This document shows, piece by piece, positions 1,491 to 21,225 of a stretch of DNA of 38,167 nt. Position numbers and translations under genes: made by a program. This DNA comes from a virus. A model generated the notes under the pieces. That model made no database searches and was not told the DNA's origin. It saw nothing but the letters and a program-made list of their open reading frames with translations. The stretch is from the IMG/VR virus record IMGVR_UViG_3300044712_001366, positions 1 through 38,167 of that record. One strand, given 5' to 3'. Every line of letters begins with the position of its first letter. The stretch's first letter is position 1.

Positions 1491-3217
1491 CACTGCTTTC
1501 ACTTTTAAACCAACGCCTAAAAATAGCAAAAGCCTTCACCAAAGACTTTCACGACGAGATCAAACAGTCTTTAGAGGACTACGACCCGCCAAAGGGCAAG
1601 AAAGACCGAACGAGCCATGATAGGCTGATAAAAACCAAAGATCTCTTTAGCATTGACGTTCGCTATATCTTTGCGACGCATGAATCTATCCTTTCTTCCC
1701 TGTTTGAGCGCGAGATGCAAGTGCTATTCTCAGGACGCGGTGAAGAAGACGCCTATAAGGAATTTATTGTGAAGGCTGTCTATGAGTACCTCTACGATGT
1801 GTGTGATTTGGATGAGTTTATTATCAAGTCTGCCTGGTGGTTCTTGCTCACGGGGTTTGTCTCAAGTACGTGTTCCTTTAAAACTGAGGTAGCATCAGAA
1901 ACCCCGCAATTAGACAGCAATGGTGATCCTATGGTTGATGAACTGGGAAATCCTGTGATGGTGCCTGTGTACTCATATAACGATCCTCTTGTAGAAGTCG
2001 ATGACATGCAAAAGGTCTACTTTGCCCCAGACTCTGAGTTTTCCATTGATGGCAAAAAAGTACCCTACTACATCTCAGAAAAACTTGTTGATCCTTCGTA
2101 TGTTGAGGAAACCTACCACAAAGAAGTTGAGGCAACCGAAGAACTTGAGGTTAAAGGGTTTGCAGAGAAAAATGTGAGTGAAAAGTCAGACCTTCAGCGC
2201 GTGAAACTCTATCGGTATGCAGGGAAGTTGCCAAAAGAGATAGCCAACGAAATAGAAGGGTATGATCCCAAAAAAGAGTATACCTGTGTGTTTACGAGTA
2301 AAGAAATTGTTGAAGTCTTAGAAGATGAGAAGCGCTGTTATCTTGCCAAGTGGTTTTCTGCTCCCAATACGTTCTTCGGGTTTGGTTTGGCAAAAACCTT
2401 AAGAGATGAGCAAAAGGAAATGAGCATTCGACGAGGGCAGATGATTCGGTACGCGGACATGTACGCCTACCCCTGGCTTTCCGTATCCGCAGAGACGCAG
2501 GTAGATCAAAAAGCATTACAGGACAGAGAAAAGAAAACTCCCCTTATGTATCAAGGAGAGAAACCCGAGTACATTGTTCCCCCAGCCCTCCCTGATGCCA
2601 TTGTTCGAGCAAGTGATGTTTCCCGATCAGATGCACAATTTACCTCAGGGACATTAGATCTCTCTAAGGGCGCGCAAGAAACGAATACCGTCAACACCGC
2701 CACAGGGCAGCAACTGTTTGCACAAAGTCAGGATAAGAGAGTGCAAAAGGCCAGAAAAGCGTTAGCAACGTACTTTCGAGAAGTTGTCATTGCACTCTTT
2801 AAGTTAGCGCGTGATAACTGGGATGAAGAGAAAGTCATTCAAATCACGGATGATGACGGACAGCCTCAGGAAGTAACCGTGTCCTCTGAGAGCCTTCAGG
2901 ACATTGATTTTGACAAGGACATTGATATTTCACTAGAAAATATTTCCGTGAATAAAGACATTCTGTCTCAACGAGTCATTGCCATGTACGACAAAATCAA
3001 AGATGACCCCTTAGTGAATAGAAGAAAGATTTTTGCCAAGATGCTACGAGAAGGGTTTGGAGAGAAGAAACCCGAAGGCTACATGTTAAGCGAAGAAGAG
3101 GTTGCTAAACAGAGCCAGCCGCAGGTGCAACCATCACCAGACCAGGAACAGCAAGCAGAGCAACCATCACCAGAGATGCCAACTATGGGAGAGCAGAATG
3201 CCCCCCAACCCTACTAA
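1487..3217 (+). CDS. Portal protein
   Basis: A 576-residue protein directly after the terminase block and before scaffold and coat, the standard portal position. Its size fits podovirus-type portals. The central stretch around residues 295-335 (TLRDEQKEMSIRRGQMIRYA) looks like the conserved portal crown/wing helices that follow a plate-like N-terminal domain. The C-terminal 40 residues are Gln/Pro-rich and probably disordered. A dodecamer of this protein would form the ring at the capsid vertex that the terminase docks on and DNA passes through. The ATG overlaps the upstream stop (ATGA). The assignment rests on position, size and general resemblance. Confidence 0.8.
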   Translation: MTLLSLLNQRLKIAKAFTKDFHDEIKQSLEDYDPPKGKKDRTSHDRLIKTKDLFSIDVRYIFATHESILSSLFEREMQVLFSGRGEEDAYKEFIVKAVYEYLYDVCDLDEFIIKSAWWFLLTGFVSSTCSFKTEVASETPQLDSNGDPMVDELGNPVMVPVYSYNDPLVEVDDMQKVYFAPDSEFSIDGKKVPYYISEKLVDPSYVEETYHKEVEATEELEVKGFAEKNVSEKSDLQRVKLYRYAGKLPKEIANEIEGYDPKKEYTCVFTSKEIVEVLEDEKRCYLAKWFSAPNTFFGFGLAKTLRDEQKEMSIRRGQMIRYADMYAYPWLSVSAETQVDQKALQDREKKTPLMYQGEKPEYIVPPALPDAIVRASDVSRSDAQFTSGTLDLSKGAQETNTVNTATGQQLFAQSQDKRVQKARKALATYFREVVIALFKLARDNWDEEKVIQITDDDGQPQEVTVSSESLQDIDFDKDIDISLENISVNKDILSQRVIAMYDKIKDDPLVNRRKIFAKMLREGFGEKKPEGYMLSEEEVAKQSQPQVQPSPDQEQQAEQPSPEMPTMGEQNAPQPY

Positions 3218-3434
3218 TCTCTGGACGGAAACGAAAGACCCCCAAACGGGGGAATCGTCCCTAAGAACACATGAACTCAAAGTGGTGCAAACCTGGTGTA
3301 AGCCAAAGGATCATATCTTTACACAGGTAACCCCCCGACTCGTGCGCTGTACCCAGTGTCAGTTTGAAACTCCTTTCATTATCGGATACCACAAACTTGA
3401 GCAAAATCATCTGGTAGAAGTCTCCCCCCTGTAA
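3198..3434 (+). CDS. Small putative zinc-binding protein
   Basis: A 78-residue protein overlapping the end of the portal gene. Cys34, His39, Cys51 and Cys54 (the CTQC knuckle), with His65, could bind one zinc ion. I chose the ATG at 3198, which has GGGAG upstream; the frame stays open further back, but only inside the portal gene. Function unknown. Position suggests a head-assembly accessory protein. Confidence 0.65.
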   Translation: MPPNPTNLWTETKDPQTGESSLRTHELKVVQTWCKPKDHIFTQVTPRLVRCTQCQFETPFIIGYHKLEQNHLVEVSPL

Positions 3435-3476
3435 AGTTTTCCCCGCTACTCTGGCATGATCTGGGTAACGTACCCA
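3427..3476 (+). promoter_or_regulatory. Late promoter-like motif, copy 1 (scaffold-coat operon)
   Basis: GTAAAG at 3431-3436 and CATGAT at 3455-3460 are separated by exactly 18 bases, with CCT before and TTTTCCCC after the first box. It lies between the portal-side genes and the scaffold gene. Just downstream is the perfect hairpin TGGGTA-ACG-TACCCA (3462-3476), which may stabilise the mRNA 5' end. Unlike copies 3 and 4, the gene it serves starts about 60 nt downstream with a normal GGAAGGAG. Confidence 0.7.
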
Positions 3477-3522: not shown

Positions 3523-4332
3523 ATGCCAACATTTCGCGACATTGCCGAAGAGTCAGTACAGGACAGTCAAGAAGAGACCACGCCCGTACAGCCCCAAGCA
3601 GAAGAACCAAAAGAAGAAGAGCACTCTGAATCTGAAGGTCAAGAAGAAATAGAAGCATTTGCCGAAAAAGTACCGCTTACTGGGAAAACTCCCGAAGAGC
3701 TAGAAGCCATCTATGACAAGTGGCAGAAAAGCTACCAGCAGAAACGACAAAAAGAAACTGCAGAGATTCGAGAGTTGAGACAACGAAACGCTGAGTATGA
3801 GCAGCGCTTATCTACCCAGCCCACGACCCAACAAGTCGAACAAGCACAGCAGGACGTACAGCAGCAGTTTGAGTTAGGAAACCTCACCGTAGAACAGTAC
3901 ACCGCATACATGCAGGAACTTTCTAAGGAAGCTGCAAAAGCTGTCTATCACGAGGAACGAGAGCAAGAGCGACAAGAAACCGCGTTTCAGGATTTTATTG
4001 ATCTTGATACACGGCTTGACAGCGACAGCCCAACATTCAATGAACGCATGTTCAAAGAATTAAACCTCGAGATGAGCCAACGACTTGCCGAGCATTTGGA
4101 GAAACATCAAACCGCGAAAGGGTTTAATGCCAAACGCATCGGAAAAGAAGTGATTGAACGGTACGACAAAGAGCTTGATGAGATCGTCAAGACAAGAACA
4201 CAACAAAGTACACAAGCTGCCAGGATGCGAGCTGCAAAGTTCTCAAAGGCCAATCCCCAAAGTACCAGTGCTCCAAGCACGTCAACCCAAGGGAAAAGTT
4301 TTCGAGACATCTTAGAAGAGAGCATGACCTGA
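3523..4332 (+). CDS. Scaffolding protein
   Basis: A 269-residue, highly charged, Gln/Glu-rich protein with long predicted helices (about residues 60-190) and almost no hydrophobic core, placed directly before the coat gene. That is the profile of a phage scaffold, which guides coat assembly and is then lost. A Ser/Thr/Gln-rich linker lies near the C-terminus. Oddly, the short motif FRDI(A/L)EES occurs at both ends: residues 4-12 and again just before the last two residues. GGAAGGAG precedes the ATG. It heads the group scaffold-coat-decoration under late motif copy 1. Confidence 0.8.
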   Translation: MPTFRDIAEESVQDSQEETTPVQPQAEEPKEEEHSESEGQEEIEAFAEKVPLTGKTPEELEAIYDKWQKSYQQKRQKETAEIRELRQRNAEYEQRLSTQPTTQQVEQAQQDVQQQFELGNLTVEQYTAYMQELSKEAAKAVYHEEREQERQETAFQDFIDLDTRLDSDSPTFNERMFKELNLEMSQRLAEHLEKHQTAKGFNAKRIGKEVIERYDKELDEIVKTRTQQSTQAARMRAAKFSKANPQSTSAPSTSTQGKSFRDILEESMT

Positions 4333-4350: not shown

Positions 4351-5304
4351 ATGCCTACATGGAACATTGGCGAAAAACTCGCCGCTGCTCTTCCGAACTA
4401 CGAAAAAGAGTTCAAAGATCAGGTATTTAACAAACACGTCCTTCTCAACATCATCAAAGAGAACGGCGGAATCAAGAAAAAGAGTGGTGGAACATCCGTA
4501 CGCGTCCCGCTCATGATTGCCGAAAGCAACTCAGAGTGGTTTTCTGGAACCGATCAATTGAATGTCGCTCCCGTTGACACATTGGATGCTGCCCAGTTTG
4601 AGTGGAGAAACTTAAACGCATCTATCACTATCACATTAGATGATGAACTGTCCAACTCAGGGCCAGAGCAAGTGATTGATCTTCTTGAAGCGAAAGTACA
4701 GCAAGCAGAGATGACTATCTCTAAAGCCTTGAATACGTCCGCCTTCACAGGAACAGGCACTGAAACCAGACCCCAGATTGTGGGATTGCAAACCTTAATC
4801 GGAACAGGAACCGTAGGTGGCATTGCAGGCGCAACCTACACCGACTGGCAATCATATGTTGAATCCACATCTGAGGCGCTTTCTGTAGCAAAGATGCGAA
4901 CAGCATTAAACACACTCAATTCTCGAAATGGCGGAGAGCCCATCTCTCACATCATGACCACACAGACGCTGTATGAGAAATATGAGACGTTGGCAACACC
5001 AACATACCAAGCAAACCCAATTGTCACTTCCAAAGAAGTGCAACGCATCATTGATGCAGGATACAACGCGCTTGCGTATGCAGGTATTCCACTCTCATTT
5101 GACCCATCTTGTCCAACAGGTGAGATGTACTTCTTCAACTTGAAGAACCTCATGATGTTTGTCCATAAAGATGCATTCATGGATAAGACACCTCGAGTGA
5201 GTCCAGTTGATCAACACGTATCCGTCCAGCACATTGTCATTCGCGCCGCTCTTGGCACGAATAAACGAAATGCACTGGGTAAATTGTCTGCAAAAACAGC
5301 ATAA
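4351..5304 (+). CDS. Major capsid protein
   Basis: A 317-residue protein after the scaffold, with no Cys-rich or catalytic motifs. Landmarks are a charged N-terminal helix, a Thr/Ser-rich hydrophobic middle (ASITITLDDEL at about 90-100, an E-loop/P-domain type segment) and a hinge rich in Gly-Thr repeats (AFTGTGTE). Position, length and composition fit an HK97-fold coat protein. The gene has AAAGGAG before the ATG. I see no fused protease domain, so maturation cleavage, if any, is not evident here. Confidence 0.85.
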   Translation: MPTWNIGEKLAAALPNYEKEFKDQVFNKHVLLNIIKENGGIKKKSGGTSVRVPLMIAESNSEWFSGTDQLNVAPVDTLDAAQFEWRNLNASITITLDDELSNSGPEQVIDLLEAKVQQAEMTISKALNTSAFTGTGTETRPQIVGLQTLIGTGTVGGIAGATYTDWQSYVESTSEALSVAKMRTALNTLNSRNGGEPISHIMTTQTLYEKYETLATPTYQANPIVTSKEVQRIIDAGYNALAYAGIPLSFDPSCPTGEMYFFNLKNLMMFVHKDAFMDKTPRVSPVDQHVSVQHIVIRAALGTNKRNALGKLSAKTA

Positions 5305-8063: not shown

Positions 8064-8100
8064 CCTGTAAAGATTCCCCCCCACGTTCTCCATACTCCAA
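8062..8100 (+). promoter_or_regulatory. Late promoter-like motif, copy 2
   Basis: GTAAAG at 8067-8072 and CATACT at 8091-8096 are separated by exactly 18 bases, preceded by AACCT and followed by ATTCCCC. It begins at the stop of the transferase cassette. A start about 7 nt after the second box gives a leader of about a dozen bases carrying AAAGGAG before the ATG at 8116. Confidence 0.65.
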
Positions 8101-8115: not shown

Positions 8116-8541
8116 ATGCAGTCATTTTCATCACTCGCCAGTCAAGCACAGCAAGCACTTGAGGCAGAGTACAAAACACTCGAAACAAAAAAAGGACAAC
8201 TTCAAGAAAAAATGAACGTTCTTGCACAGCACGAACTTGCCATTACTGAAAAAGAGCAAGAGTTGGAGCGAAAAGACAAGGATCTCGTGTCACGACTTGA
8301 AGAAGTCTCACGAAGAGAAGCAAACCTTCATAGTCAAGACGAAGTGGAACAAGCAAAAGCGGAAGCGGAACGATTGAGCAAGCAAGCTTTGGACGCATTC
8401 AAGAAAGCAAAAGAGCTGAACGATGACGCAAGTTTGAAGCTCAAAGACCTTTCTAAGAGAGAACTTGCTCTTTCCGAAGAGAAGAAGTCATACGAAGCGC
8501 GGATCAAGCAGGAAATGATTGATCGCATGTTCTCACGATAG
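8116..8541 (+). CDS. Coiled-coil protein upstream of the adaptor
   Basis: A 141-residue, almost wholly helical protein with heptad-like Leu spacing and a strongly charged Lys/Glu surface from about residue 12 to 130. It has no hydrophobic segment and no signal peptide. AAAGGAG precedes the ATG. It lies just before the head-tail adaptor and may be a virion structural or assembly chaperone protein. No family recognised. Confidence 0.7.
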   Translation: MQSFSSLASQAQQALEAEYKTLETKKGQLQEKMNVLAQHELAITEKEQELERKDKDLVSRLEEVSRREANLHSQDEVEQAKAEAERLSKQALDAFKKAKELNDDASLKLKDLSKRELALSEEKKSYEARIKQEMIDRMFSR

Positions 8542-9205: not shown

Positions 9206-11137
9206 ATGCCAAAGATTGTAGCAAACATCCAAGACCCGCCGCTAAAAGACGAATCTATCTCTGGATTTTTAGGGGGCTTAAACACTTTTCAAGATGAAAC
9301 CTTATTAAAAGACTCAGAGCTAACGGAAGCGAAAAACATCTTACTTTCCATTGATGGCATTGAACCACGCCCAGGAACTACTGCGTTTGGATCAAATAAC
9401 TCTGAAAGTCGCGTACTAGGAGGGTTTGCATACTACAAATCCGATGGAACACGAGAATTTTTGCGCATGTCTGGGGGGAAACTGTATAAAAAGAACGGGA
9501 GTTCTTGGGATAGAATCGGCACGCAGACCTGGACAGCAACCGCGAAGGCAAACTTTGTGCAAGCCAGGGATTTAGTCTTTATCTTCAACGGCGTTGATGC
9601 GCTTTCCTACTATAACGGTTCAACCATTACCACGTATTCTGCACTCACTACCCCTGTAGGGCTTGCGCTTGCAACCGCAGGAACCGCAGGAACCACAACC
9701 TACTCCTATCGCATTTCCGCATTTAATAACACAGGAGAAACACTAGCGTGTGCAGCCGTTACGATTGCTACAGGTAACGCTCTTCTAGATGCGACAAACT
9801 ACATTAAACTTTCTTGGACGGCAGTAACAGGAGCCGTAGGGTACAACGTCTGGGGACGAAAGAGTACAGGACTTGGCGAAACGTACTTAGCCACCGTGTA
9901 TGCAGCGGGAACTGATGCGTATTTGGATAAAGGACAGGACGATCCATCTACGGCAATCTTACCCCCAGAAGCGAATACGACCACAGGTATTATTTGTCAA
10001 AAGGCTGTATTTGGGCAGTCCAGAATCTTTGCAGCAGGCGACCCCGCAAACCCTTCTCGCCTCTACTACTCAGGCGTTGGTTCAAAGATAACCGACTTTT
10101 CCTTTTCAGAAACAGGAGGAGGAGCTACGGATATCTTTAAGAATGATGGCGCGATTATTCGGGATATCTTAGCCTTTCAAGGATCCATCATTGTCTGGAA
10201 GGATAACGCAATTTACTCATTTTCCATCTCCACAGGTATTCCAACACTTCTAGAAATTACCCGATCCTTTGGTGGTATTGCCTGGAGAGCCTCCCGACAC
10301 GTTGAAAATGACGTGATTTTTCCTGCAAGAAAAGATGGACGACTTGCCTTTTACTCTCTCGGAAACCAGGAAAACTACTCTGCAAATATCTTGCGAACCA
10401 ATGAATTAAGCATCAAAGTTGCCTCAAAACTCAATGAGGTGAATGTCTCAGGACTACCCAATGCCTGCGCGTTTTACTTTAATAACTTGTACATGTGCGC
10501 CGTTCCCAAGGAAGGGTCAAGCGTCAATAATAGAATCTGGATTTTAGATACGCGATTTGGCGCCTGGGTGTACTGGGAAGGCCCGAAGATTAACTTCTTT
10601 ACCACCTTCATTGATACAGATAACTCAGAAAAACTCTACTACGGCGGAGACGACACAGGCTACATCTACCAGATGTTTACAACAGACCGAAACGATAACG
10701 GTTCAGCAATGAGTGTGGAATGGGCGACAAAGTCCTTTAATCAAAAACTCTTTCACAAGAAAAAAGAGTACTACGATCCCACGTTTCAGTTTAAGGATAT
10801 CACCGTTTCAGGCGCACTTGAGGGGGACATCATCATTGACGGAGCGATTGTCAACGCCTCATTTACCGTCAACCAGCAGACGTCTGGAGGATCTGGATTT
10901 GGCGCGTTTAAAGTGGGAGCGTATCTTTTTGGCTTATCCCCTAATGGAACAGCAAGCCAGGCGCTTTCTTCCGATACAGTAGTGGAAGTGTACACCAAAC
11001 AGGAGTCTCGAGCGATTAAGTACCGATTCCGTTCAAATACCGTAAATGCGCGGTACAAGTTCCTTTCTATTAACCACACCTACGCCGTTTTAGGAGAGAT
11101 GCGCCTTTCCTCAAGTAGCAGGGTGTATGCAGATTAA
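9206..11137 (+). CDS. Tail nozzle / DNA stabilisation protein (P22 gp10-like)
   Basis: A 643-residue beta-rich protein. It opens with the motif SGFLGGLNTFQDETLLKDSE, followed by 'E(A)KNI...DG..PRPGT', the usual start of podovirus nozzle proteins of the gp10/gp12 type. A run of blade-like repeats suggests a beta-propeller. At about 147-210 an inserted Fn3/Ig-like domain (TTYSYRISAFNNTGET...LSWTAVTGAVGYNVW) interrupts it, a common insertion in this family. The protein would close the tail channel and carry fibres or spikes. Weak GGGGG before the ATG. It ends exactly where late motif copy 3 begins. Confidence 0.75.
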   Translation: MPKIVANIQDPPLKDESISGFLGGLNTFQDETLLKDSELTEAKNILLSIDGIEPRPGTTAFGSNNSESRVLGGFAYYKSDGTREFLRMSGGKLYKKNGSSWDRIGTQTWTATAKANFVQARDLVFIFNGVDALSYYNGSTITTYSALTTPVGLALATAGTAGTTTYSYRISAFNNTGETLACAAVTIATGNALLDATNYIKLSWTAVTGAVGYNVWGRKSTGLGETYLATVYAAGTDAYLDKGQDDPSTAILPPEANTTTGIICQKAVFGQSRIFAAGDPANPSRLYYSGVGSKITDFSFSETGGGATDIFKNDGAIIRDILAFQGSIIVWKDNAIYSFSISTGIPTLLEITRSFGGIAWRASRHVENDVIFPARKDGRLAFYSLGNQENYSANILRTNELSIKVASKLNEVNVSGLPNACAFYFNNLYMCAVPKEGSSVNNRIWILDTRFGAWVYWEGPKINFFTTFIDTDNSEKLYYGGDDTGYIYQMFTTDRNDNGSAMSVEWATKSFNQKLFHKKKEYYDPTFQFKDITVSGALEGDIIIDGAIVNASFTVNQQTSGGSGFGAFKVGAYLFGLSPNGTASQALSSDTVVEVYTKQESRAIKYRFRSNTVNARYKFLSINHTYAVLGEMRLSSSSRVYAD

Positions 11138-11176
11138 CCTGTAAAGATTCCCTATCGACTTCTTCATGATACGGGT
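11136..11176 (+). promoter_or_regulatory. Late promoter-like motif, copy 3, abutting a start codon
   Basis: GTAAAG at 11141-11146 and CATGAT at 11165-11170 are 18 bases apart, preceded by AACCT and followed by ATTCCC. The fibre ATG is at 11177, only 6 nt after the second box, and no Shine-Dalgarno lies between. If the box is the -10 element, transcription would begin at or next to the A of the ATG, giving a leaderless mRNA. Confidence 0.7.
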
Positions 11177-12676
11177 ATGGCTACTACACCGCTTTACTAC
11201 GCGCAACAATTCATTGAAACAACGCTCAATGTTGGAGGAGGAATCACCGACGTTCAGACTACAGGGATCATCCTTCAATCTGTTTCAGGCATTGATATCA
11301 CCAAGCCTGGCATTATCTGCATGACGTATGCAGAGCCACTTTCTACAAGTACCGCCGAGTTTATCACTTATACCTCGATTAACGGCTCGAATGAGCTTCA
11401 GGGAGTAACTAGAGGAGCGGAAGGGTACGGCGCAAAAACACACGCCAACGGCGCCCGTGTTGCCTTTGTTGTGTCTGAATCCCATTTTAATAACTTGAAT
11501 GCGATGTTTGATGCAACGGGCTTAGATATTAAGCAAATCGCAACCCCCGCAAACCCAGATAGCGGAAGAAATAAGCTGTACTTTAAATCCGACGGAAAGC
11601 TCTATTCTCTCACAAGTGCTGGAGTGGAAGGGGAAGTTGGCGCAAGCGCTTCGGTTGGATTGTTCCAGCAAGTTGTTATCAATGGAAACTTTGATATCTG
11701 GCAGAGAAACACCACCTTCACAACACCAAACGATGATGTGTTTTTAGCGGATAGATGGAATAACCTTGCAGACGGAAACGGCGCATGGACGTACTCTAGA
11801 GCAACCGATGTGCCATCTGAGAAGTCCATGTACTCCTTTAAAGCGGTCAATGTTACGGCCAACAAACAAGGCGGAATAGTCCAGTTCATTGAAAACGTCG
11901 ATACCAAAAAGCTTGCAGGAAAAACAGTCTCCCTTTCCTTTCAGGCAAAAACTACCACAGGAAAAGAGATTGGCAATCTTCGGGCTACAGTCTTAGCCTG
12001 GAACAGTACCGCCGATACCGTTACTTCTGATGTGGTTGGCACCTGGGCGGGAAATGGGACAGATCCAACCTGGGCCACAAACTGGACTGCAGAAGTTGCA
12101 GGAGCGAACAAAGCCTTAACTGCCGATTGGCAGAAGTTTACCGTTCAAGGGATTGTGTTAGATACCGCATCAACGGCAAATCTTGCAGTGGTCATCTGGG
12201 TTGATGACACCACGATTACTGCAGGGGATGAGTTTTTCGTTACCCAAGTGCAGATGAACGTAGGATCTACAGCATCCGAATTTTACCCAAAGACTTTTGG
12301 CGAGGAATTACGATCTTGCCAGCGATACTTTGAAAAAAGTGTAGGCTACAGCGTCGTTCCCAATACCACGGACGGATTTGATGAAACCGTAGGACGGGGT
12401 ATTGCCCTTACGACCACAGTCGTATCTATCGTCAATGGATTATTTGCTGCGGAGAAACACCGAGTACCAACTGTTACGTTTTACGCTTCTGATTCTGCAA
12501 CAGGAGCAGGTACGGCAAACCGCTTCCGTGATGATTCCGTAAGCGGACTGGTTGATATCTCCTCTCCCACATCAACGAACTTCTCTACAAAAGCGATTGT
12601 TATTCTCAAGAAAAATGTGCCATTTACCGCAGGAAGATGGTACGGATTCAACTGGATAGCAGAAGCAGAACTGTAA
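11177..12676 (+). CDS. Tail fibre / receptor-binding protein
   Basis: A 499-residue protein. The N-terminal 160 residues are a beta-rich virion-binding part ending in KLYFKSDGKLYSLTSAG. At about 170 the protein switches to a jelly-roll-like module (VVINGNFDIWQRNT...LADRWN), common in phage fibres and hydrolases. It has a carbohydrate-binding-module look (KLAGKTVSLSFQAKT). Near residue 380 comes EELRSCQRYFEKS, a motif often seen at the start of fibre C-terminal domains. No enzyme motif was seen. It probably binds a surface glycan. No Shine-Dalgarno precedes the ATG; see late motif copy 3. Confidence 0.75.
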   Translation: MATTPLYYAQQFIETTLNVGGGITDVQTTGIILQSVSGIDITKPGIICMTYAEPLSTSTAEFITYTSINGSNELQGVTRGAEGYGAKTHANGARVAFVVSESHFNNLNAMFDATGLDIKQIATPANPDSGRNKLYFKSDGKLYSLTSAGVEGEVGASASVGLFQQVVINGNFDIWQRNTTFTTPNDDVFLADRWNNLADGNGAWTYSRATDVPSEKSMYSFKAVNVTANKQGGIVQFIENVDTKKLAGKTVSLSFQAKTTTGKEIGNLRATVLAWNSTADTVTSDVVGTWAGNGTDPTWATNWTAEVAGANKALTADWQKFTVQGIVLDTASTANLAVVIWVDDTTITAGDEFFVTQVQMNVGSTASEFYPKTFGEELRSCQRYFEKSVGYSVVPNTTDGFDETVGRGIALTTTVVSIVNGLFAAEKHRVPTVTFYASDSATGAGTANRFRDDSVSGLVDISSPTSTNFSTKAIVILKKNVPFTAGRWYGFNWIAEAEL

Positions 12677-12684
12677 GGAGATAT

Positions 12685-15600
12685 ATGCAAAACCGTTCCC
12701 CCGTACTACAACGACCAAACAAGGGCAAATCCTCAGCAGAGTACTTGCAAGAACTTGAAGCATTAATGAAGCGAAACAAAGGCGGGATGACGTTAGTCGG
12801 TGAGGATGTGGGATTTAATACGCCGTACAGTTTAGCCAATGCTGTACCAAATACTCCACCTGCTCTACAAGGGGGATTATCAAACTATCAGCAACCCAAT
12901 CCAACCAAACAGAATAGACCCATTCCACAAGAATTACCACCCTATGAACCACCCCCAGAAGATACGGGAGATGAAGGAGAGGGTGATGAGTATGGAGATG
13001 AATTGCCAGAAAACCCAACAATTGAGCAGTTTTTAGACGTTATTAACAATTCCGTTAATCCTACACAACAGCCTAGTACACAACAAATGGAATCCGTGTA
13101 CCAGCAAACAGGAAAAGCCTATCCCTTAGCCTCTATGCAGGATGGTTCCGTTCTGTATTCCGATGGTTCGTATCGCTCAGCACAAGAAGTGCAACGAAAC
13201 CCCCTAGCAATAGCTTCACTGGAGGGAAATAGAGTGTTGTACGACGATGGGATTGTCCGAAACGGAGACTACATTGACGAGGAAGCGACACAAGCAGTAG
13301 CAGAATATGGTGGTGTTGCTGGTCTTTCTCAAATGATTTTTGGTCAGCAGCAAGCCGTTACTCAGGAGTTTGGAGTAAAAGGTATCCATGCTCGAGGGCA
13401 TCGAGGTGTAGACTTTCGAACGCGAGACCTTACAAACAGGGAAATACGCCCATCATTAAACGGTGAAGTCGTGCAAGTTCTTTATGATGACGGAACACGA
13501 TTCGGGACATATTCGGGACACCAGGGCTACGGAAACTCTGTTCTCATTCGTCTGTCCACAGGAGAGTATGTTCGTCTTTCACACCTTTCTTCAGTCGCAG
13601 TTCAGCCAGGACAAGCCATACGACCAGGAGACTTAATCGGAACACCAGGAAGCACAGGAAACTCAACAGCTGAGCATATGGACGTAGAGGTTCTGGATCA
13701 AAACGGCAGAGTAATGGATCCAAATAAATTGAATTATCAGATTCGACAAAATAGAGAGCAGTACGTTTCCCAGGATGAACGACCACAGCCAGGACAAATT
13801 TCAGACCAGTACAGCCCCTCTAACCAACAGCTTTTTTCTTCACAACCACAACAGCGACAGCAGATGCAACAGCCAGCTTCACAACAAATGCAACAGCAAA
13901 GACAAGAAACGATGTTGCCTCGCCCAATCGTAGAGAAAACAGCGCAAGCATTTCAAAATATCCAAGAAATTCCAGAAGCAATGCGCATGGTTGCAGAACC
14001 CATGAGTCCAGAAAGACAAGCGGGTGGAGAGTTTATTAATCAAACAGGTCAAGTTCTAGGACTTGGAACAGATAAAGGGTTTCTTGGTACTGGAGAAGAT
14101 TTTGCAGGAAATACACAAGCGGCAATACAAGAACGGGAACGTTCTATTGCATCTGGAACGTTAGGACAAACGAATCCACTTCGATATTTAGCAGGAAATG
14201 TAACAGAAAAAGTCGGAGATAGGCTTGGTTTTATTGAGGGAAAATCATCAGAAGCAATAGCAGGAGCGCCAACAAGAAGAACAAATCTTGCGGAAGCAGC
14301 AACTCCTGAATTTCAGCAAATGCCCCGTCCATTTCAAGATCAGTATGAACAAACCATTAAAGGTGATGTTCAGCGAGCTACTCCACAGATAAAGAATCTC
14401 TCAGCAAAAGCAAATCAGGTAACCAATCCTTTTAACCTTCTTACTTCTGGACTTCAAAAAGCAGGATCGTTTGTTGCCAATCAAGCGCAACAGAGCATGA
14501 ACACGAGAAAACAAGCCGCGCAGAATGTTTCGAATGTCTTTGCCAAAAGAGTGCAAAACCCCGTCTCAGCTCAACCTACGCAGGGTATGCCAAACCCAGA
14601 AAGCGCACTTGCAAAGATCATGAACCAGAAGGATCAGCAAACGCCTGATGCGTCCGCGCAACCTGTCATCAACCAGCCAGGACAAGGACTTTCCGACCTC
14701 AAGGGACAGTATCAGGGAGTGTCTGAGCAGGACAGTAATATTTTTAAACAAAAAGCACTTGATACCTTCGGGAAAAAGGCAATCGGCGAGGATTCATCAA
14801 ACTCTGAAGCCTCAAACATGCTTCCTACCTCGTTATTAGATCTCAATAAGGTGGGAGCGGAAAACGACAACAGAGATGCCTTCTTTAAAGCTGGAGGCGC
14901 ACAAGCCTACAAAGACTACCTAAACCCTGGAGTTACAGAAAAATACAAAGGCGCCCTTGATTTAAACCTGTTTAACGCAAAGACCTTTGATGATCCCAAT
15001 GCGATTGCAAACATCTTTGGTTCGACCTTTTTAGGCAAAGCAGCTACTGATATCTATAGAGGACGAGAAGCCGCAAAGTACCCGAAAATGGGCTATGGAG
15101 AGTACGGGTATGACGGTGATTACCGAAACGCGGTAGATTCCTACAACCGAGAGATAGATAAGTACATTTCTTCGATTCCTTCGGTGTTTACCTCAGGATT
15201 TAAGTTTGAAGCTCCTGCAAAGTCTTCTGTGATGCGTCCAACAGGCCCCGTATCACAAAAGGCAAGCGTTCAAGCACCGCCAAAAAACTTTATCCCTCTT
15301 GTTGCTCCAGTGCTCTCGTCGCTTCCTGTTCCAGGAAAGCAGATGATTCAGCCTCTTGCAAAAGCAGCAAGTATTGCACAAAACATTTTTGCAGCACAAA
15401 AACCCACAGCAGCGGTGAAGGCGCCAAGCATTTCACGACCATCAAGCGGCCCTGCACAGCCTTCTAAGCCATCCGTCAACGTGTTTTCCAATGCAGTCAA
15501 ATCGGTGATTTCCGCTCCCGCAAAGGTTGCAGCAAATCCTGTATCTATTGCTTCCAAGATCGTCAACCTTCCGAAGATCAGCACGCCGACCATCAGCAAA

Positions 15601-15702
15601 CCTGCCGTGCAGTCTGCAGTCAAGAGTGTGGCAAAAGCAGTGTCTAATCCAGGGAATACGCTGTTTAAGGCAATTACTAAGGCCGTGAGTAAAAAGAGAT
15701 AA
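12685..15702 (+). CDS. Virion-associated protein with M23-type peptidase domain
   Basis: A 1005-residue protein, first of three large Gln-rich putative internal virion proteins. The ATG at 12685 has AAGGAG 4 nt upstream, so I reject an in-frame upstream start at 12637. At about residues 230-345 lies an M23 (LytM/lysostaphin-type) fold: H239-x3-D243 (HRGVDF), then HLSS, then H331-M-D333-VEV. M23 enzymes normally end in HxH, so the second His, a zinc ligand, is replaced by Asp here. Activity is therefore uncertain. The rest is low-complexity, Gln/Pro/Ala-rich, with possible amphipathic helices. Expected role: local wall opening during DNA entry. Confidence 0.75.
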   Translation: MQNRSPVLQRPNKGKSSAEYLQELEALMKRNKGGMTLVGEDVGFNTPYSLANAVPNTPPALQGGLSNYQQPNPTKQNRPIPQELPPYEPPPEDTGDEGEGDEYGDELPENPTIEQFLDVINNSVNPTQQPSTQQMESVYQQTGKAYPLASMQDGSVLYSDGSYRSAQEVQRNPLAIASLEGNRVLYDDGIVRNGDYIDEEATQAVAEYGGVAGLSQMIFGQQQAVTQEFGVKGIHARGHRGVDFRTRDLTNREIRPSLNGEVVQVLYDDGTRFGTYSGHQGYGNSVLIRLSTGEYVRLSHLSSVAVQPGQAIRPGDLIGTPGSTGNSTAEHMDVEVLDQNGRVMDPNKLNYQIRQNREQYVSQDERPQPGQISDQYSPSNQQLFSSQPQQRQQMQQPASQQMQQQRQETMLPRPIVEKTAQAFQNIQEIPEAMRMVAEPMSPERQAGGEFINQTGQVLGLGTDKGFLGTGEDFAGNTQAAIQERERSIASGTLGQTNPLRYLAGNVTEKVGDRLGFIEGKSSEAIAGAPTRRTNLAEAATPEFQQMPRPFQDQYEQTIKGDVQRATPQIKNLSAKANQVTNPFNLLTSGLQKAGSFVANQAQQSMNTRKQAAQNVSNVFAKRVQNPVSAQPTQGMPNPESALAKIMNQKDQQTPDASAQPVINQPGQGLSDLKGQYQGVSEQDSNIFKQKALDTFGKKAIGEDSSNSEASNMLPTSLLDLNKVGAENDNRDAFFKAGGAQAYKDYLNPGVTEKYKGALDLNLFNAKTFDDPNAIANIFGSTFLGKAATDIYRGREAAKYPKMGYGEYGYDGDYRNAVDSYNREIDKYISSIPSVFTSGFKFEAPAKSSVMRPTGPVSQKASVQAPPKNFIPLVAPVLSSLPVPGKQMIQPLAKAASIAQNIFAAQKPTAAVKAPSISRPSSGPAQPSKPSVNVFSNAVKSVISAPAKVAANPVSIASKIVNLPKISTPTISKPAVQSAVKSVAKAVSNPGNTLFKAITKAVSKKR

Positions 15703-15710
15703 GGAGTACT

Positions 15711-17291
15711 ATGAATGTTTTTCAGACCATGGCAAATCAGAGCATGAAGAAGAGAGCGCAGGATTTTGTTACCCAGAACCCGCAAGTTTCCGCGTACAAG
15801 AACATTCAAACGGGCGGAAACACCATAGGAAACATCGCACGAGGCGTTACAAATGTTGTTGCGAAAGCCTCAAAGTACGTTCCCATGTTTGCGCCAGCCG
15901 TAAAGCAGTACAACACCGTACAAAAGTACCAGCCACAGACGCAACAGCCTAAGTTGTGGAGAAACACAAACGAAGGGAAAGCCGCGATGTCTCAGGCAAC
16001 GGCAAACGTGCAGATGCGACAGCAGCCATCCGCTCCTTCTCCTCAGCCACAGCCAATGGGTACACCCCCAAGCGCTCCTTCTCAGCCAAGCCAGAACACG
16101 ACGATGAACCAGTTGTTTAGCAGACAACAAGACTACATCAATAGCGCTGAAGCGAGACAACGAGCATTGCAGGAACAAATGCGACAGGAAAACGAGAGAA
16201 ACGCAGAACAACGATTTGGAAACGTCGAAGCGGATCTACGCGCACAAATCCCCGAACTTCAAGGGCAGTTTGAGCGGTTTAGGGGAAACGTGCAAGCTGG
16301 CATTCAGGACACCGAGAAACAAGGAGAACAGCAAAAACAACAAGCTGATACCTATTACGGTGATTTACAACGCCAATTGATGCAAAACAAGCGGCAAACC
16401 GATGCACAGCGTGAGAAACAATACGCAGGACTTGGCACTATAGATTCATACGGTACTGGCTCATTTACCCAGGGAAATGCTAACGCCGACACAGAGTTTA
16501 CGAGAATGACGAATCAAAACCTGGAAGCAAAGGCAAGCAAATTGTCAGACATTGATATGGCAGTAGGACAAGCCAAGCGGGACGCACAAGCAAAAATAGA
16601 TGATGAAGGGGCAAAGCTTCAATCTACCTTACGACAAATTGAATCCATGCTTCGGGATAACTCCCAAGCTAAGGGTGAAGCCATGCGAGGCGCATACCTT
16701 CAGTACCAGCAAGCAATAGGCGACATTCAAGACCAGTATGAAGGCTTGCGTATGGCGGGTGAAGAAGCAAAGATGCAGTACCAGCTAGAACTCAATAAAG
16801 CACAGCCTGATCTCTCTGAAGAGTTTATGCAAACTGGTGTACCACAAACCATGAATGACTTTATCTATAGAACACAAAACGCCTCAGCTTTTGGAAAATT
16901 TGGAGAATCGGGTAAAGCAAAAACATCAGCACAACTACAAATGGAAGGAAAAGCAGGAGCAGGACTGCGAGCATTGGACACGATTGAAACAGAAATTCTC
17001 AAAAACCCAAATATTCTTGTTCAGAATTCTATTTGGGGAGCTCCTGGAACCCGTGAATTTGAGGGTGCAGTTTCCAGTGCTATGGATGCTATTGGAGGAT
17101 TAAGAACAGGTGCATCAGTGAGTAAAGAGCAACAAGCATATTACCGCAATATGCTTCCAAAAGCTGGAGATAGTCAGGAAACTATCAAAAATAAATTGAT
17201 GGCGCTTCGTCAAGAACTTCAAGGGTATGCACAAGATGCCCAAAATATGAGAAGCGGAACAGATGAACTAATGCAAATATTAGGACTTTAA
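15711..17291 (+). CDS. Large Gln-rich internal virion (ejection) protein
   Basis: A 526-residue protein with a Gln/Pro-rich N-terminal third (about 75-140) and a long helical middle (about 140-370) rich in Gln, Ala and Lys. The helix could form an elongated bundle. No catalytic motif or signal was seen. AAGGAG precedes the ATG, 9 bp after the previous gene. Size, composition and place between the M23 protein and another large protein fit the three-protein internal or ejection set of podoviruses. Exact role is inferred. Confidence 0.65.
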   Translation: MNVFQTMANQSMKKRAQDFVTQNPQVSAYKNIQTGGNTIGNIARGVTNVVAKASKYVPMFAPAVKQYNTVQKYQPQTQQPKLWRNTNEGKAAMSQATANVQMRQQPSAPSPQPQPMGTPPSAPSQPSQNTTMNQLFSRQQDYINSAEARQRALQEQMRQENERNAEQRFGNVEADLRAQIPELQGQFERFRGNVQAGIQDTEKQGEQQKQQADTYYGDLQRQLMQNKRQTDAQREKQYAGLGTIDSYGTGSFTQGNANADTEFTRMTNQNLEAKASKLSDIDMAVGQAKRDAQAKIDDEGAKLQSTLRQIESMLRDNSQAKGEAMRGAYLQYQQAIGDIQDQYEGLRMAGEEAKMQYQLELNKAQPDLSEEFMQTGVPQTMNDFIYRTQNASAFGKFGESGKAKTSAQLQMEGKAGAGLRALDTIETEILKNPNILVQNSIWGAPGTREFEGAVSSAMDAIGGLRTGASVSKEQQAYYRNMLPKAGDSQETIKNKLMALRQELQGYAQDAQNMRSGTDELMQILGL

Positions 17292-17294
17292 CCT

Positions 17295-18914
17295 ATGCCA
17301 ACACAAGAACAAATCAACCTCGCACTACAAAAAGGGTATACCCCACAGCAAATCCAGCTCGCTCTTGCGCGAGCAGGTCAAATCCAGCCAAAAAAGAAAA
17401 CTATCGGAGGATTCCTTGGTAATGTCTTATCTTCTGGAGTAAGAACTGTAGGAGATGTTGCAGGAGCAGTTCTAAACCCAATAGAGACAGGAAAAAGCGT
17501 ATGGAACTTAGGAACAGGAGCAGCGCAATTATTGCTCCCTGGAGAACAGGGAAACGAACAGTACGCTCGAGCTGTAGGAGACTTTTACAAGAATAGATAT
17601 GGAAGTTTAGAAAATATTGGAAATACGTTGTATAACGACCCTGTAGGGGCTGTCATGGACGCTTCTTCTGTCTTTGGTGGTTCTGGTAGTCTCCTGAAAG
17701 GAGCGGGCAAAGTTTCAAAGATAAACTCACTGACAAAAGCAGGAACAGCACTTTCCAGAGCAGGAGATTTGATTGATCCAATTGCAGCAGTAGGAAGAGG
17801 AGTAGGAAAAGTAACTCGAGGAGTAGGGAGAAGACTTGCCCCCCTTGCTAAAGATGTAGGAAAAGAATTTGCAGTTCGATCTGTCCGAGCAAACCCCACA
17901 CAACTTGAAGACTTCAAAGAAATATCTGGAATGGATTTGAGCGATTACATGGTGAATGAAGAGTTGTATGGAGGCGGAAAACGGGCATTAAACCAATCTT
18001 TAAAACAATCGAAACCTTTTCAGAAAAAATATAATAAACTAACAAGAACAGGAAAAACAATTTCTCGAGGGCAATATATCGAGAATTTACGACAGCAGGC
18101 ACTTTCAATACTTGAAACAGATCAAAGCCCAGCTGCTCGAAATATGGCAGAAGCTGTCTGGAAAGAAGCAGATAAACAAGAACGATTGGGATCACTTACG
18201 GATACTATACTCACTAATTCCAAGTCAAGTAGCTACGCAAAGGCTCCAAAAGGATCACTTCAAGATGCAACGGTTATGAACTTTAATAAAGAGATTGGAA
18301 ATGTTGGAGCAAATACACTAGAGCAATTAGCTCAGGGATCAAGAGACTTGGGAAAGAAGCTTCAAATTCAACGCGCATTTCAAGACATTGCCTCAAAACA
18401 AAGCCAATTAGGAAGAGGAGCGCAGATTATTAACGCTTTTAAACCGATAATGTCAGGTATCACTGGTGGCGGAATTGTTGGAACAGGTTTTGCTCCGGGT
18501 ATAGGAACATTAATTGGATCTACTATTGGCGGTGTTACTGCGTTCGCAGCAAACAATCCAAGTCTTCAAGGAGCAGCTGCGAAAGTACTTACAAAAGGGA
18601 AATTACCAAAAATACCAGGACAAATTCCAGCAACAGGAAGAGCGGTATATAAGGTGGGAACAATTGGAAGAATGCTTAATCCCAGTACACAGCAATTATC
18701 AGCATCAACACAACAAATATCAAAAAAATCGCCAATGCAGTCATTACCATCTAGTATACCACAGCAAAACAAGCCTGTAGCTACTCAGCAGACAACTCCA
18801 GTACTGCCAAAGAAACTACCGAAATTACCACCTCCTACGATCTCACAACCGAAGAATAACCAAAGCATGAACTTCTATAAACCTGTGAAATTGAAGAGAA
18901 GTAGTGCGTATTAG
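17295..18914 (+). CDS. Internal virion protein with glycine-rich membrane-like segment
   Basis: A 539-residue protein. It begins with a small helical module (QEQINLALQKGYTPQQIQLAL) that may bind another virion part. Several amphipathic helices follow, with AVG/GVG repeats (about 120-200), and a long Gly/Ala/Ile stretch at about 384-420 (GITGGGIVGTGFAPG...). That stretch could cross or fuse with a membrane. The C-terminal 90 residues are Gln/Pro/Lys-rich. It may form part of a trans-envelope channel during DNA ejection. The Shine-Dalgarno is weak (AGGA about 9 nt upstream), and it starts 3 nt after the previous stop, so coupling is likely. Confidence 0.65.
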   Translation: MPTQEQINLALQKGYTPQQIQLALARAGQIQPKKKTIGGFLGNVLSSGVRTVGDVAGAVLNPIETGKSVWNLGTGAAQLLLPGEQGNEQYARAVGDFYKNRYGSLENIGNTLYNDPVGAVMDASSVFGGSGSLLKGAGKVSKINSLTKAGTALSRAGDLIDPIAAVGRGVGKVTRGVGRRLAPLAKDVGKEFAVRSVRANPTQLEDFKEISGMDLSDYMVNEELYGGGKRALNQSLKQSKPFQKKYNKLTRTGKTISRGQYIENLRQQALSILETDQSPAARNMAEAVWKEADKQERLGSLTDTILTNSKSSSYAKAPKGSLQDATVMNFNKEIGNVGANTLEQLAQGSRDLGKKLQIQRAFQDIASKQSQLGRGAQIINAFKPIMSGITGGGIVGTGFAPGIGTLIGSTIGGVTAFAANNPSLQGAAAKVLTKGKLPKIPGQIPATGRAVYKVGTIGRMLNPSTQQLSASTQQISKKSPMQSLPSSIPQQNKPVATQQTTPVLPKKLPKLPPPTISQPKNNQSMNFYKPVKLKRSSAY

Positions 18915-18924
18915 TAACCATGAT

Positions 18925-18955
18925 CTGCACAATAAGCAGGTTTAGGTGTTTTTTT
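18925..18955 (+). terminator. Possible weak terminator after the internal-protein genes
   Basis: A short CTGC/GCAG stem (18925-18928 with 18936-18939), then nine bases and a run of seven T (18949-18955). It separates the rightward late genes from the leftward pair 18972-19596. The stem is short and the gap is long for a classic intrinsic terminator. Confidence 0.3.
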
Positions 18956-18971
18956 ACAGTCTTCTGCAAGA

Positions 18972-19208
18972 TTATTGAGTTTTATTTAACTTCTCCATAC
19001 ACTGCTTTATATCATCAACTTTAATGTATCCAATATCCTTATTGTTCCACGTTTTAATGTCGAGCATACAGTTGAAAGAAGCTTTTTGCAGGTTATAGTC
19101 TGTCACCAATGCATTGTAATGCTCAGTAAGCTTTTCATACTGGTAAAAGTAATAGCCTAGAAACCCAAGTGTGGTGATAAATGTTAAAAGAAATAAAAGT
19201 CTTTTCAT
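18972..19208 (-). CDS. Small membrane-anchored protein (moron pair, second gene)
   Basis: A 78-residue protein with a basic start (MKR) and a single hydrophobic segment at about residues 4-24 (LLFLLTFITTLGFLGYYFY). A polar, probably external tail with two Cys follows (SFNCM..., KQCMEK), which could form a disulfide. Upstream is AAAGGAA 5 nt before the ATG, 1 bp after the stop of its partner at 19210. Opposite strand and AT-rich composition, unlike the late genes around it, suggest separate acquisition. Function unknown; superinfection exclusion or lysogenic conversion is a guess. Confidence 0.65.
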   Translation of the reverse strand: MKRLLFLLTFITTLGFLGYYFYQYEKLTEHYNALVTDYNLQKASFNCMLDIKTWNNKDIGYIKVDDIKQCMEKLNKTQ

Positions 19209-19209
19209 A

Positions 19210-19596
19210 TTATTCCTTTACTTGTACAAATCTAAACGTTTTTTTCAATTCCTCGTTTTCTTTTAGAAGTCTTGTTACTTCTTCTTCTTTTTTCTTTGTT
19301 TCATCTGCTATTTTTCCATATTCTTCCATTAATGACATTAATTGTGCATCTGTAATAGTATTTTTTAATAAACCAACGTTCATTTGATTGCATATTTTAT
19401 GTGTTTGATACATTCCCTGTGAATAATCATATAGTGAGGAACAATATGCAGTATCGCTTTTTGACGCTGAATTCATTTCCTCTATAGTCTTTTTATAGTC
19501 TGGAATCTGATAGAGTTTAATTGTTGCATAATCCCACGCAGCATAGAGGAAAAGACACAGAATAATTATGCGAATGATGAGATGGATTTTTTTCAT
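19210..19596 (-). CDS. Membrane-anchored coiled-coil protein (moron pair, first gene)
   Basis: A 128-residue protein: N-terminal transmembrane segment at about 4-21 (IHLIIRIIILCLFLYAAW), a middle with two Cys (AYCSSLY, HKICNQ), and a charged coiled coil at about 88-122 (EEYGKIADETKKKEEE). An in-frame ATG at 19605 exists. I prefer 19596, with AGGA 8 nt upstream on the predicted transcript. The Cys pair is then on the outside face. Together with 18972-19208 it forms a two-gene leftward unit with its own host-type promoter inside the late region, the hallmark of a moron. Product role unknown. Confidence 0.65.
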   Translation of the reverse strand: MKKIHLIIRIIILCLFLYAAWDYATIKLYQIPDYKKTIEEMNSASKSDTAYCSSLYDYSQGMYQTHKICNQMNVGLLKNTITDAQLMSLMEEYGKIADETKKKEEEVTRLLKENEELKKTFRFVQVKE

Positions 19597-19616
19597 ATCT
19601 AACATCCTATAATACT

Positions 19617-19645
19617 ATTATACTCCTCTAAGTCAAGACAAACAA
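19617..19645 (-). promoter_or_regulatory. Host-type promoter for the leftward membrane-protein pair
   Basis: Read on the minus strand: TTGTTT (19645-19640), 17-bp spacer, TATAAT (19622-19617), a perfect -10. Start would be near 19610, leaving a short leader that carries AGGA before the ATG at 19596. A second reading (TTGACT, 16 bp, TATTAT) overlaps it but would place the start too close to the gene. It lies back to back with late motif copy 4. Confidence 0.6.
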
Positions 19646-19660
19646 AAGGCGAACCACTCC

Positions 19661-19704
19661 AATACCTGTAAAGTTTCCCCGTTCAGTCTGGCATCATCGA
19701 ATCT
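19661..19704 (+). promoter_or_regulatory. Late promoter-like motif, copy 4, abutting a start codon
   Basis: GTAAAG at 19668-19673 and CATCAT at 19692-19697 are 18 bases apart, preceded by TACCT and followed by TTTCCCC. It shares TCTGGCAT with copy 1. The ATG at 19705 is 7 nt after the second box and lacks any Shine-Dalgarno, the same arrangement as copy 3. It would drive the lysis and tailspike genes. Confidence 0.7.
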
Positions 19705-19968
19705 ATGCCAGCTTCAGGTCAAGATCTCATCTACACAAAAAACTTCCTTGCTAACTTCATTCTTCTGAATGTGGAAAAAGTGGGGGCTGTTACCTATCTA
19801 GGGAAACAATCCCCTGATGGGGCATACCTTGTGATGAAGATCGATACCACGTCAGGTACGGCGTTCTCCTACGCCACACTTCGCAACAATCCGACAATTC
19901 TTGATTATCCAACTGCCTGGACAAACAGGGCAAGTTTAACGTATGGGACACCAGCGCAAGCCGTGTAA
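19705..19968 (+). CDS. Small beta-rich protein heading the lysis operon
   Basis: An 87-residue protein with no recognised domain. The pattern (VGAVTYLGKQSPDGAYLVMKIDTTSG) suggests a small beta sheet; there is no membrane segment. It is the first gene under late motif copy 4 and is predicted to be translated from a leaderless mRNA. Similar small proteins often sit near fibres, so a virion part is possible. Confidence 0.65.
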   Translation: MPASGQDLIYTKNFLANFILLNVEKVGAVTYLGKQSPDGAYLVMKIDTTSGTAFSYATLRNNPTILDYPTAWTNRASLTYGTPAQAV

Positions 19969-20247: not shown

Positions 20248-21225
20248 ATGCGTTTCCCCGTAGGATCAGACTATCAGGACTTTACAAAGTACTGGTACAA
20301 CGCCTTCAAGTTTGGAGAGAAGACCGATTACGGCTTCCATGACGGGGATGACTTTAACTTAAAGACGGGTGGAGACTCAGACCTTGGGCAACCCCTCTAT
20401 GCAGTTGCTGATGGAGAAGTAACCTCTGTACATAGTCATCCAGAATCAGGGTTTGGGCTTCATATTCATCTCTACCACCCAGAGTACAAGATCTATTCTC
20501 ACTACGCCCATTGTCAAGACATCAAGGTGGTTAAAGGGCAAAAGGTTACTGAAGGGCAAGTGATTGCAACGCTAGGAAAGAGCGGAAGACCCAAGAATAC
20601 CCTACCTGCACACCTGCACTTCTCACTCAAGAAAGAACCAACGGGCATTGATAGCGTCCCCAGAACACAAGAAGAACTTTCAAAGTGGATGAATCCTACG
20701 CACTTTATCACCGAACACCTAACCAAGGAGGAGTCTATGAGTACTGAGCTTGAAGCGTGTATGGCAGATCGTCAGAAATTCTGGACTGAACGAGACGAAG
20801 CGCTCAAAGAATTAGAAACAAAGAAACGAGAGATTGCAGAGTTAAACGCAACCATCAAAGTCGAGCAAGACAAAGGGGAAGAGTACCGAAAAGCACACGT
20901 GAGCTTTTTAGAAACCTTAGCACAAAAACTCATGTGCCAACCTACGGAAATTGATATCACCAGCAAAATTGATGTGTTAATAAGCGTAGAAGACAAGTTA
21001 GGTGCAGTACAAAAAGCATTCGATAACGCAAAAACAGACTACCAACGACAGATAGATGAATTAAAAGCCGAAAATCAGCACTTACAGGAAGCACTCCAGA
21101 GGTACGGTGAGAAGGTGGAAGAGCTAGAAGCTAAGATTACCGCTTTACCTACTCAAACACCCGAAACAAACCCATTAGAGAACCTTATAGAGTCCATTAT
21201 TGCGCTCATCAAGCGCAGAAAGTGA
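20248..21225 (+). CDS. M23 peptidase endolysin with coiled-coil tail
   Basis: A 325-residue protein. The N-terminal 160 residues are a complete M23 zinc peptidase: H31-x3-D35 (FHDGDDF), H85-Y-A-H88, and H122-L-H124 (AHLHFSL). All expected metal and catalytic residues are present, so it should cut peptide cross-links in peptidoglycan. A long charged coiled coil (about 165-300) follows, then a C-terminal amphipathic helix (NLIESIIALIKRRK) that could touch the membrane. There is no signal peptide, so release would need a holin. AGGAG precedes the ATG. The coiled-coil tail is unusual for an endolysin; a virion or anchored role is an alternative. Confidence 0.85.
   Translation: MRFPVGSDYQDFTKYWYNAFKFGEKTDYGFHDGDDFNLKTGGDSDLGQPLYAVADGEVTSVHSHPESGFGLHIHLYHPEYKIYSHYAHCQDIKVVKGQKVTEGQVIATLGKSGRPKNTLPAHLHFSLKKEPTGIDSVPRTQEELSKWMNPTHFITEHLTKEESMSTELEACMADRQKFWTERDEALKELETKKREIAELNATIKVEQDKGEEYRKAHVSFLETLAQKLMCQPTEIDITSKIDVLISVEDKLGAVQKAFDNAKTDYQRQIDELKAENQHLQEALQRYGEKVEELEAKITALPTQTPETNPLENLIESIIALIKRRK

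Follow-up and report, generated by a model that had tools for sequence, protein, structure and literature searches.

Predicted near-leaderless late promoters with a phage-specific -35 element in a family of phages related to a Patescibacteria-type prophage

The virus record IMGVR_UViG_3300044712_001366, analysed here over its whole length of 38,167 bases and called the window below, contains a tail fibre gene and a gene at the head of the lysis block whose start codons stand only a few bases past a -10-like promoter box. We wondered whether promoters placed so close to the ATG deliver mRNAs with practically no leader, and what would direct RNA polymerase to them. A preliminary description of this DNA had placed both ATGs 6-7 nucleotides (nt) past the box, with no Shine-Dalgarno sequence, and had proposed leaderless mRNAs as an unusual late strategy for chosen structural genes. 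The sequence comparisons presented here make leaderless or near-leaderless late mRNAs from this phage very likely, and they lead to a candidate reader of the promoters.

Results

Three start codons closely follow -10-like boxes

The two gaps were verified as 6 and 7 nt. At the fibre gene, CATGAT (11165-11170) is followed by the six bases ACGGGT and ATG 11177; at the lysis head, CATCAT (19692-19697) is followed by the seven bases CGAATCT and ATG 19705. As had been noted, both starts lack a Shine-Dalgarno sequence, neither having a match of even 3 bases. Both fused genes are real, and a third had been missed: the portal gene, where GAAGAT (1473-1478) lies 8 nt before ATG 1487. This box matches 3 of 6 consensus bases and is overlapped by an AGGA 9-13 nt before the ATG. 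The start codon is ATG in all three. The box precedes it by 8 nt at 1487, 6 nt at 11177 and 7 nt at 19705, so that each gene has what we call an open reading frame (ORF)-adjacent -10 box, 5-9 nt before the start. Across the ORFs of the window, Shine-Dalgarno matches of at least 4 bases were found in 30 of 48 and of at least 5 bases in 21 of 48, against 2.3 of the latter expected from shuffles, so that the earlier statement that most genes carry AGGAG is fair, if loose.

In sigma-70 promoter geometry, transcription is expected to start about 7 nt past the box. The RNA is therefore predicted to begin at the A of the ATG for the fibre gene and one or two bases before the ATG for the lysis head and portal genes, the portal leader having a predicted length of about 2 nt.

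The boxes belong to a motif with five copies in the window: CCTGTAAAG occurs 5 times on the + strand and not at all on the - strand, with the full form CCTGTAAAG-N-TTCCC. Its frequency is above random chance: the 15-mer at up to 3 mismatches was observed 5 times against 1.24 expected, a number attained in 0 of 100 shuffles, and the combination of motif and box was found twice in the window and never in 100 shuffles. All five copies are accompanied by a -10-like box (A at position 2, T at position 6) whose first base lies exactly 24 nt past the G of GTAA, while the distance from element to ATG varies from 39 to 95 nt. The five elements precede the portal (1487), scaffold-like (3523), coiled-coil (8116), fibre (11177) and lysis head (19705) genes.

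Predicted late promoters of the window
1446-1478, + strand: late promoter 1; element CCTGTAAAGAATCCC at 1446-1460, weak box GAAGAT at 1473-1478
3428-3460, + strand: late promoter 2; element CCTGTAAAGTTTTCC at 3428-3442, box CATGAT at 3455-3460, leader of about 56 nt
8064-8096, + strand: late promoter 3; element CCTGTAAAGATTCCC at 8064-8078, box CATACT at 8091-8096, leader of about 13 nt beginning near AAGGAG
11138-11170, + strand: late promoter 4; element CCTGTAAAGATTCCC at 11138-11152, box CATGAT at 11165-11170
19665-19697, + strand: late promoter 5; element CCTGTAAAGTTTCCC at 19665-19679, box CATCAT at 19692-19697

The copies ahead of the scaffold-like and coiled-coil genes are followed by real leaders with AGGAG (AAGGAG at both). 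Each promoter has a single element, extending only to about -39, and the multiple imperfect upstream repeats of RinA/Ltr-type systems are not present. A scan of IMG/VR gave a single exact match to the motif, on the opposite strand inside the tape-measure gene of an unrelated phage, which we attribute to chance.

The element and box are spaced like a -35/-10 pair in related phages

A search with the portal protein returned the contig L014, and alignment of the tail protein returned L014 again together with 14 viral contigs (L016, L094-L106) and the bacterial contig L107. These sixteen relatives share the late-gene block, most with an element of their own at the same genes, and the closest to the window is L107, a prophage. 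As far as the contigs reach, the order terminase, small genes, portal, scaffold, capsid, coiled-coil, tail, fibre is kept, except that the fibre homologue of L096 is located elsewhere. Annotated phage records gave no DNA match and no portal match, and their capsid matches were remote only. The capsid relatives L004-L008 were left unused as too distant or too short, and relatives found through the fibre, which mostly share only its C-terminal part, were excluded from the promoter work, except L016.

Genes of the shared block and of the lysis block in the window
1487-3217, + strand: portal, P22-type by Pfam and PHROG
3523-4332, + strand: scaffold-like gene preceding the capsid gene; putative function, from its position between portal and major capsid across the family, with no Pfam or PHROG family match
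4351-5304, + strand: major capsid protein (PHROG major head protein, 1.6e-44), AAAGGAG ahead of the start
8116-8541, + strand: coiled-coil protein gene, AAGGAG ahead of the start
9206-11137, + strand: virion/tail protein with the highest conservation in the family (59% identity in L014) and the query for relatives
11177-12676, + strand: tail fibre (PHROG tail fibre, 4e-39)
19705-19968, + strand: lysis-block head gene, 87 amino acids, function unassigned, no Pfam or PHROG family match; ATG 7 nt past the -10-like box
20248-21225, + strand: M23 peptidase, probable endolysin (Pfam Peptidase_M23, 1.7e-17; PHROG endolysin), for which the block is called the lysis block

The elements, which recur at the portal, scaffold, coiled-coil and fibre genes of the relatives, fall into three classes: GTAAAG (class A) in the window, L105 and L107, the portal copy of L107 being GTAAAT; GTAAC in L014, L095, L098, L102 and L104; and TAAACCTTT in L097, L100 and L103. 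L096, L099 and L101 carry other sequences and were left unclassed. The element-to-box distance is 24 nt in 13 of 13 GTAAAG sites, 23 nt in 15 of 16 GTAAC sites and 24 nt in 5 of 5 TAAACCTTT sites; the sites were picked by element and position, so the counts are descriptive and do not amount to blind testing. Agreement with TATAAT has a sharp maximum at the class distance, independently of how far away the ATG is. Exactly four element-box pairs lie on the coding strand of L014, and likewise of L095, at the portal, scaffold, coiled-coil and fibre genes.

A spacing that is fixed regardless of where the ATG lies indicates a -35/-10 pair rather than an RNA element tied to the start codon. A motif acting in RNA, as an antitermination or translation-enhancing sequence, would account for a 15-base core conserved within one genome, and transcripts from further upstream could include it; given the constant distance to a TATAAT-like box, the variable distance to the ATG and the class-specific spacing in relatives, we consider this very improbable.

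Fused starts recur at portal and fibre genes

Across the family, a box lies exactly 6 nt before the ATG in 13 of 23 portal and fibre starts, where shuffles gave a mean of 1.33 and a maximum of 7 in 5,000, a test independent of the upstream element. Portals have a box with at least 4 of 6 consensus bases 5-9 nt before the ATG in 9 of 12 cases (that of the window scores 3), and the portal is the most consistent fused case in the family by sequence. Fibre relatives have a box in this range in 7 of 11 cases, six of them at 6 nt. Shine-Dalgarno matches of at least 4 bases are found at 1 of 12 portal and 3 of 11 fibre starts, and at 12 of 13 scaffold, 9 of 14 capsid and 7 of 8 coiled-coil starts. 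In the same genomes the box precedes 0 of 13 scaffold starts and 0 of 17 tail starts. At the coiled-coil gene both states occur, a leader in the window and in some of the relatives and a fused start in L014, L098, L102 and L104, so that the start state can change at one gene. With this gap recurring in diverged relatives and the element-to-box spacing constant, the earlier proposal that transcripts start at or beside the ATG is well supported.

Two other origins of the short gap were considered. Sequence rich in A+T ahead of start codons can mimic a -10 box, and some relatives have a G+C content of only 32-38%; that of the window is 44%, however, and with the 6-nt count above all 5,000 shuffles and no box at the scaffold and tail starts of these genomes, chance is scarcely credible as the explanation. 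Alternatively, portal and fibre could be translated mainly by coupling from longer read-through transcripts, the gap merely reflecting compact packing. The late genes are co-directional, and the portal ATG of the window overlaps the stop of the preceding gene (ATGA). Yet 39 bases without a Shine-Dalgarno sequence separate the tail stop from the fibre ATG, the lysis head comes after opposite-strand genes, and packing alone does not predict a peak at 6 nt across relatives; we regard coupling as improbable, if less so than an RNA motif.

The leaders of the scaffold genes (for example L014:4075-4123, and those of L095, L102, L104, L105 and L106) have a shared layout of their own, starting near AGACC and continuing with a short hairpin, GTCT and a Shine-Dalgarno sequence. 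The hairpin keeps its outer stem unchanged, and its inner stem varies, with some paired changes. Folding of each sequence singly was not significant, so the hairpin is noted here and not claimed.

Leaderless-type starts are common in the host of the closest relative

The L107 prophage sits at the end of a 528-kb contig that also carries a 16S gene. Its phage genes reach as far as an integrase (about 17.9-18.9 kb; Pfam, 1e-25), with bacterial genes beyond. The host genome is about 1.1 Mb, those of its order being 0.5-1.8 Mb, and together with the 16S gene it suggests Patescibacteria.

In this host a TATAAT-like box lies 6-9 nt before the first ATG in 97 of 348 genes (28%), against 16.5 expected. 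The box was found in 59 of 275 genes of its order (12 expected) and in 18 of 212 genes of a phylum-wide sample (8.4 expected). Taking the first ATG as the start blurs a peak and cannot create one. Shine-Dalgarno matches of at least 5 bases are at chance level in the L107 host (10 against 10.2 expected) despite an intact anti-Shine-Dalgarno sequence, CCTCC, at the 3' end of its 16S gene. As a control, 49 kb of E. coli treated by the same method showed no such box peak and had Shine-Dalgarno matches of at least 5 bases in 37%. In this genome and its order (L113-L132, on G001 contig C2, and L154-L173), leaderless-type starts account for 20-28% of genes.

Judging from the frequency of boxed genes and the chance level of Shine-Dalgarno matches, starts of the leaderless type appear to be customary in this host group. 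The view of them as an unusual phage strategy was dropped after this survey, as they are common in the genome carrying the closest relative and in its order. Their use at chosen structural genes holds for portal and fibre; the lysis head is not structural.

The -35 element is a different matter. An extended -10 characterises the host promoters, none of which (0 of 103) has GTAAAG at the phage spacing.

A sigma-region-4-like protein tracks the element class

The candidate reader in the window is encoded by the gene overlapping the portal start:

1221-1490, + strand: sigma-region-4-like helix-turn-helix protein gene, 89 amino acids, candidate late promoter specificity factor; its 3' end overlaps the portal start

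A gene of this kind stands directly before the portal in 11 of 12 phages with a complete region, the exception being L094. The family matches Pfam Sigma70_r4_2 with values up to 5e-10 (in a relative), and its PHROG match is a sigma factor; its Pfam matches are to sigma region 4 and general helix-turn-helix families and include no RinA, Ltr or ArpU family. The AlphaFold model of the 89-residue protein (mean predicted local distance difference test score, pLDDT, 85.5) has four helices only. Its best Foldseek matches are mostly sigma factors or region 4, at E values of about 0.01-0.2 that are weak and typical of so small a domain, and a profile search of solved structures returned nothing significant. 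Region 2, the reader of the -10 box, is missing from the model, and the protein is thus filed as sigma-4-like only and not as a sigma factor.

The recognition helix sorts into groups that match the element classes, and two natural cases bear on this link. L105 is a mosaic, with head genes and sigma-4-like protein near those of the window and L107, and tail and fibre genes near those of the GTAAC phages L102 and L014 (its tail protein is 79% identical to that of L102 and 62% to that of the window). Its fibre promoter is of the GTAAAG type despite the GTAAC-like tail and fibre genes, which indicates that the element follows the protein and not the neighbouring genes. L094, of the GTAAC class by portal and capsid, is without the protein and has no element-box pair. 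By these sequence comparisons the late -35 element is phage-specific, not host-like, and its class tracks the sigma-4-like protein. The likeliest reader of the element is the small protein encoded before the portal.

The near-leaderless promoters could instead be read by the host sigma factor, alone or with a different phage activator, the sigma-4-like protein being otherwise employed. The boxes look like ordinary -10 boxes, region 4 by itself is an incomplete sigma factor, and the linkage of the protein to the remaining head module leaves other candidates. The element is missing from host promoters, however, and its class goes with the protein-bearing head module in L105 and is lost together with the protein in L094. 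We judge this alternative unlikely, though it is the most serious of those considered.

A model for late expression and the points against it

We propose that the five elements serve a temperate phage of Patescibacteria-type bacteria as its late promoters. Each would combine a phage-specific -35 element, here GTAAAG, with a -10 box whose start lies 24 nt past the G of that element. The reader of the element would be the sigma-4-like protein, with its resemblance to region 4, the part of sigma factors that binds the -35. At the portal, fibre and lysis head genes, where the box is 6-8 nt ahead of the ATG, RNA polymerase would start at the ATG or 1-2 bases before it, and the ribosome would initiate on a leaderless mRNA, as it apparently does for many host genes. 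Ahead of the scaffold/capsid and coiled-coil genes, a promoter of this same kind stands further upstream and would yield a leader with a Shine-Dalgarno sequence.

Several observations weigh against this proposal. The boxes of the window are weak, with 3-4 of 6 consensus bases, that of the portal being the weakest. The portal of L094 is without a box and that of L102 has none within our definition, and the fibre starts of L016, L094, L095 and L096 are not of the fused type. No relative of the lysis-head gene was found for comparison, and its promoter rests on the window's own motif. The window uses Shine-Dalgarno sequences far more (21 of 48) than the L107 host, which may not be the host of the window. 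The Pfam region 4 match of the window's own protein, 0.056, is below the cut-off. Element and protein classes also follow phylogeny apart from two single exceptions, L105 and L094, and the reader of the element could be a different factor linked to the head module.

Taking both sides together, we consider the full explanation, that is phage-specific late promoters that are leaderless at portal, fibre and lysis head and have a sigma-4-like reader, to be probable. The further step, in which the stand-alone protein redirects the host RNA polymerase and promoter placement sets the output of each gene (fused portal and fibre, leadered scaffold and capsid), is one on which we are evenly divided.

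Other features of the window

The window has an identical 127-base repeat at both ends (1-127 and 38041-38167), so that the record probably represents a complete genome, circular or terminally redundant. This repeat is crossed by the terminase gene. Further features are:

12685-15702, + strand: large protein, probably of the virion, containing an M23 peptidase domain, a second M23 protein besides that of the lysis block
18972-19605, - strand: two small opposite-strand genes between the virion genes and the lysis block, directly ahead of late promoter 5
27515-27543, + strand: canonical promoter TTGACA-17-TATACT where the probable early region begins, differing from the late promoters
30883-31020, + strand: tandem array of GGTCGA/GGTCGT hexamers
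36916-36984, - strand: tRNA-Ser gene, adjoined by a tRNA-like stretch at about 37004-37073 (- strand) without an ARAGORN call

Discussion

Little work has been done on gene expression in Patescibacteria and in their phages, and the data yield a concrete, testable model in which the L105 recombinant and the L094 loss act as built-in natural controls. Rules for promoters and start codons would also improve the annotation of these genomes and phages. In the open literature we found no paper on leaderless genes in Patescibacteria (candidate phyla radiation, CPR) and none on late promoters of their phages, which is weak evidence of novelty, as most subscription papers lie outside such a search.

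Leaderless phage mRNA has an example in lambda cI, whose transcript from PRM starts at the A of the AUG. There it concerns a single lysogeny gene; here the predicted leaderless mRNAs are those of late virion and lysis genes, and the arrangement is kept across a phage family. Phage sigma factors and sigma-like co-activators that redirect host RNA polymerase to late promoters include gp55 and gp33 of T4. Unlike that pair, the present system has one small region-4-like protein, and a separate -10-reading partner or clamp was not identified.

In Deinococcus-Thermus, a -10 box stands directly before about 30% of ORFs and drives leaderless expression, with mutational proof (PMC12340547). The ORF-adjacent -10 box and the lack of a Shine-Dalgarno sequence are the same in both cases, and so nearly is the frequency, with about 28% of genes in the L107 host set against the 30% or so of ORFs in Deinococcus-Thermus. 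Those promoters are cellular and need no -35 element, whereas here the late genes of a phage would form a regulon, marked by a phage-specific -35 element, in Patescibacteria-type hosts.

The RinA/Ltr late regulators, from phages of Gram-positive bacteria, work by way of repeats that lie upstream of a single promoter, the one preceding the terminase genes (PMC13123087). As in those systems (PMC13123087), a small phage protein is encoded beside a late promoter and is its presumed activator. In contrast to them, the present phages have a single -35 element at each of four or five promoters, and the gene, which follows the terminase, has its matches in sigma region 4. The predicted leaderless late mRNAs are ordinary for the host group, and what makes them notable is their conservation at virion genes of phages; the phage-specific -35 element with its probable sigma-4-like reader is the more interesting and more unusual part.

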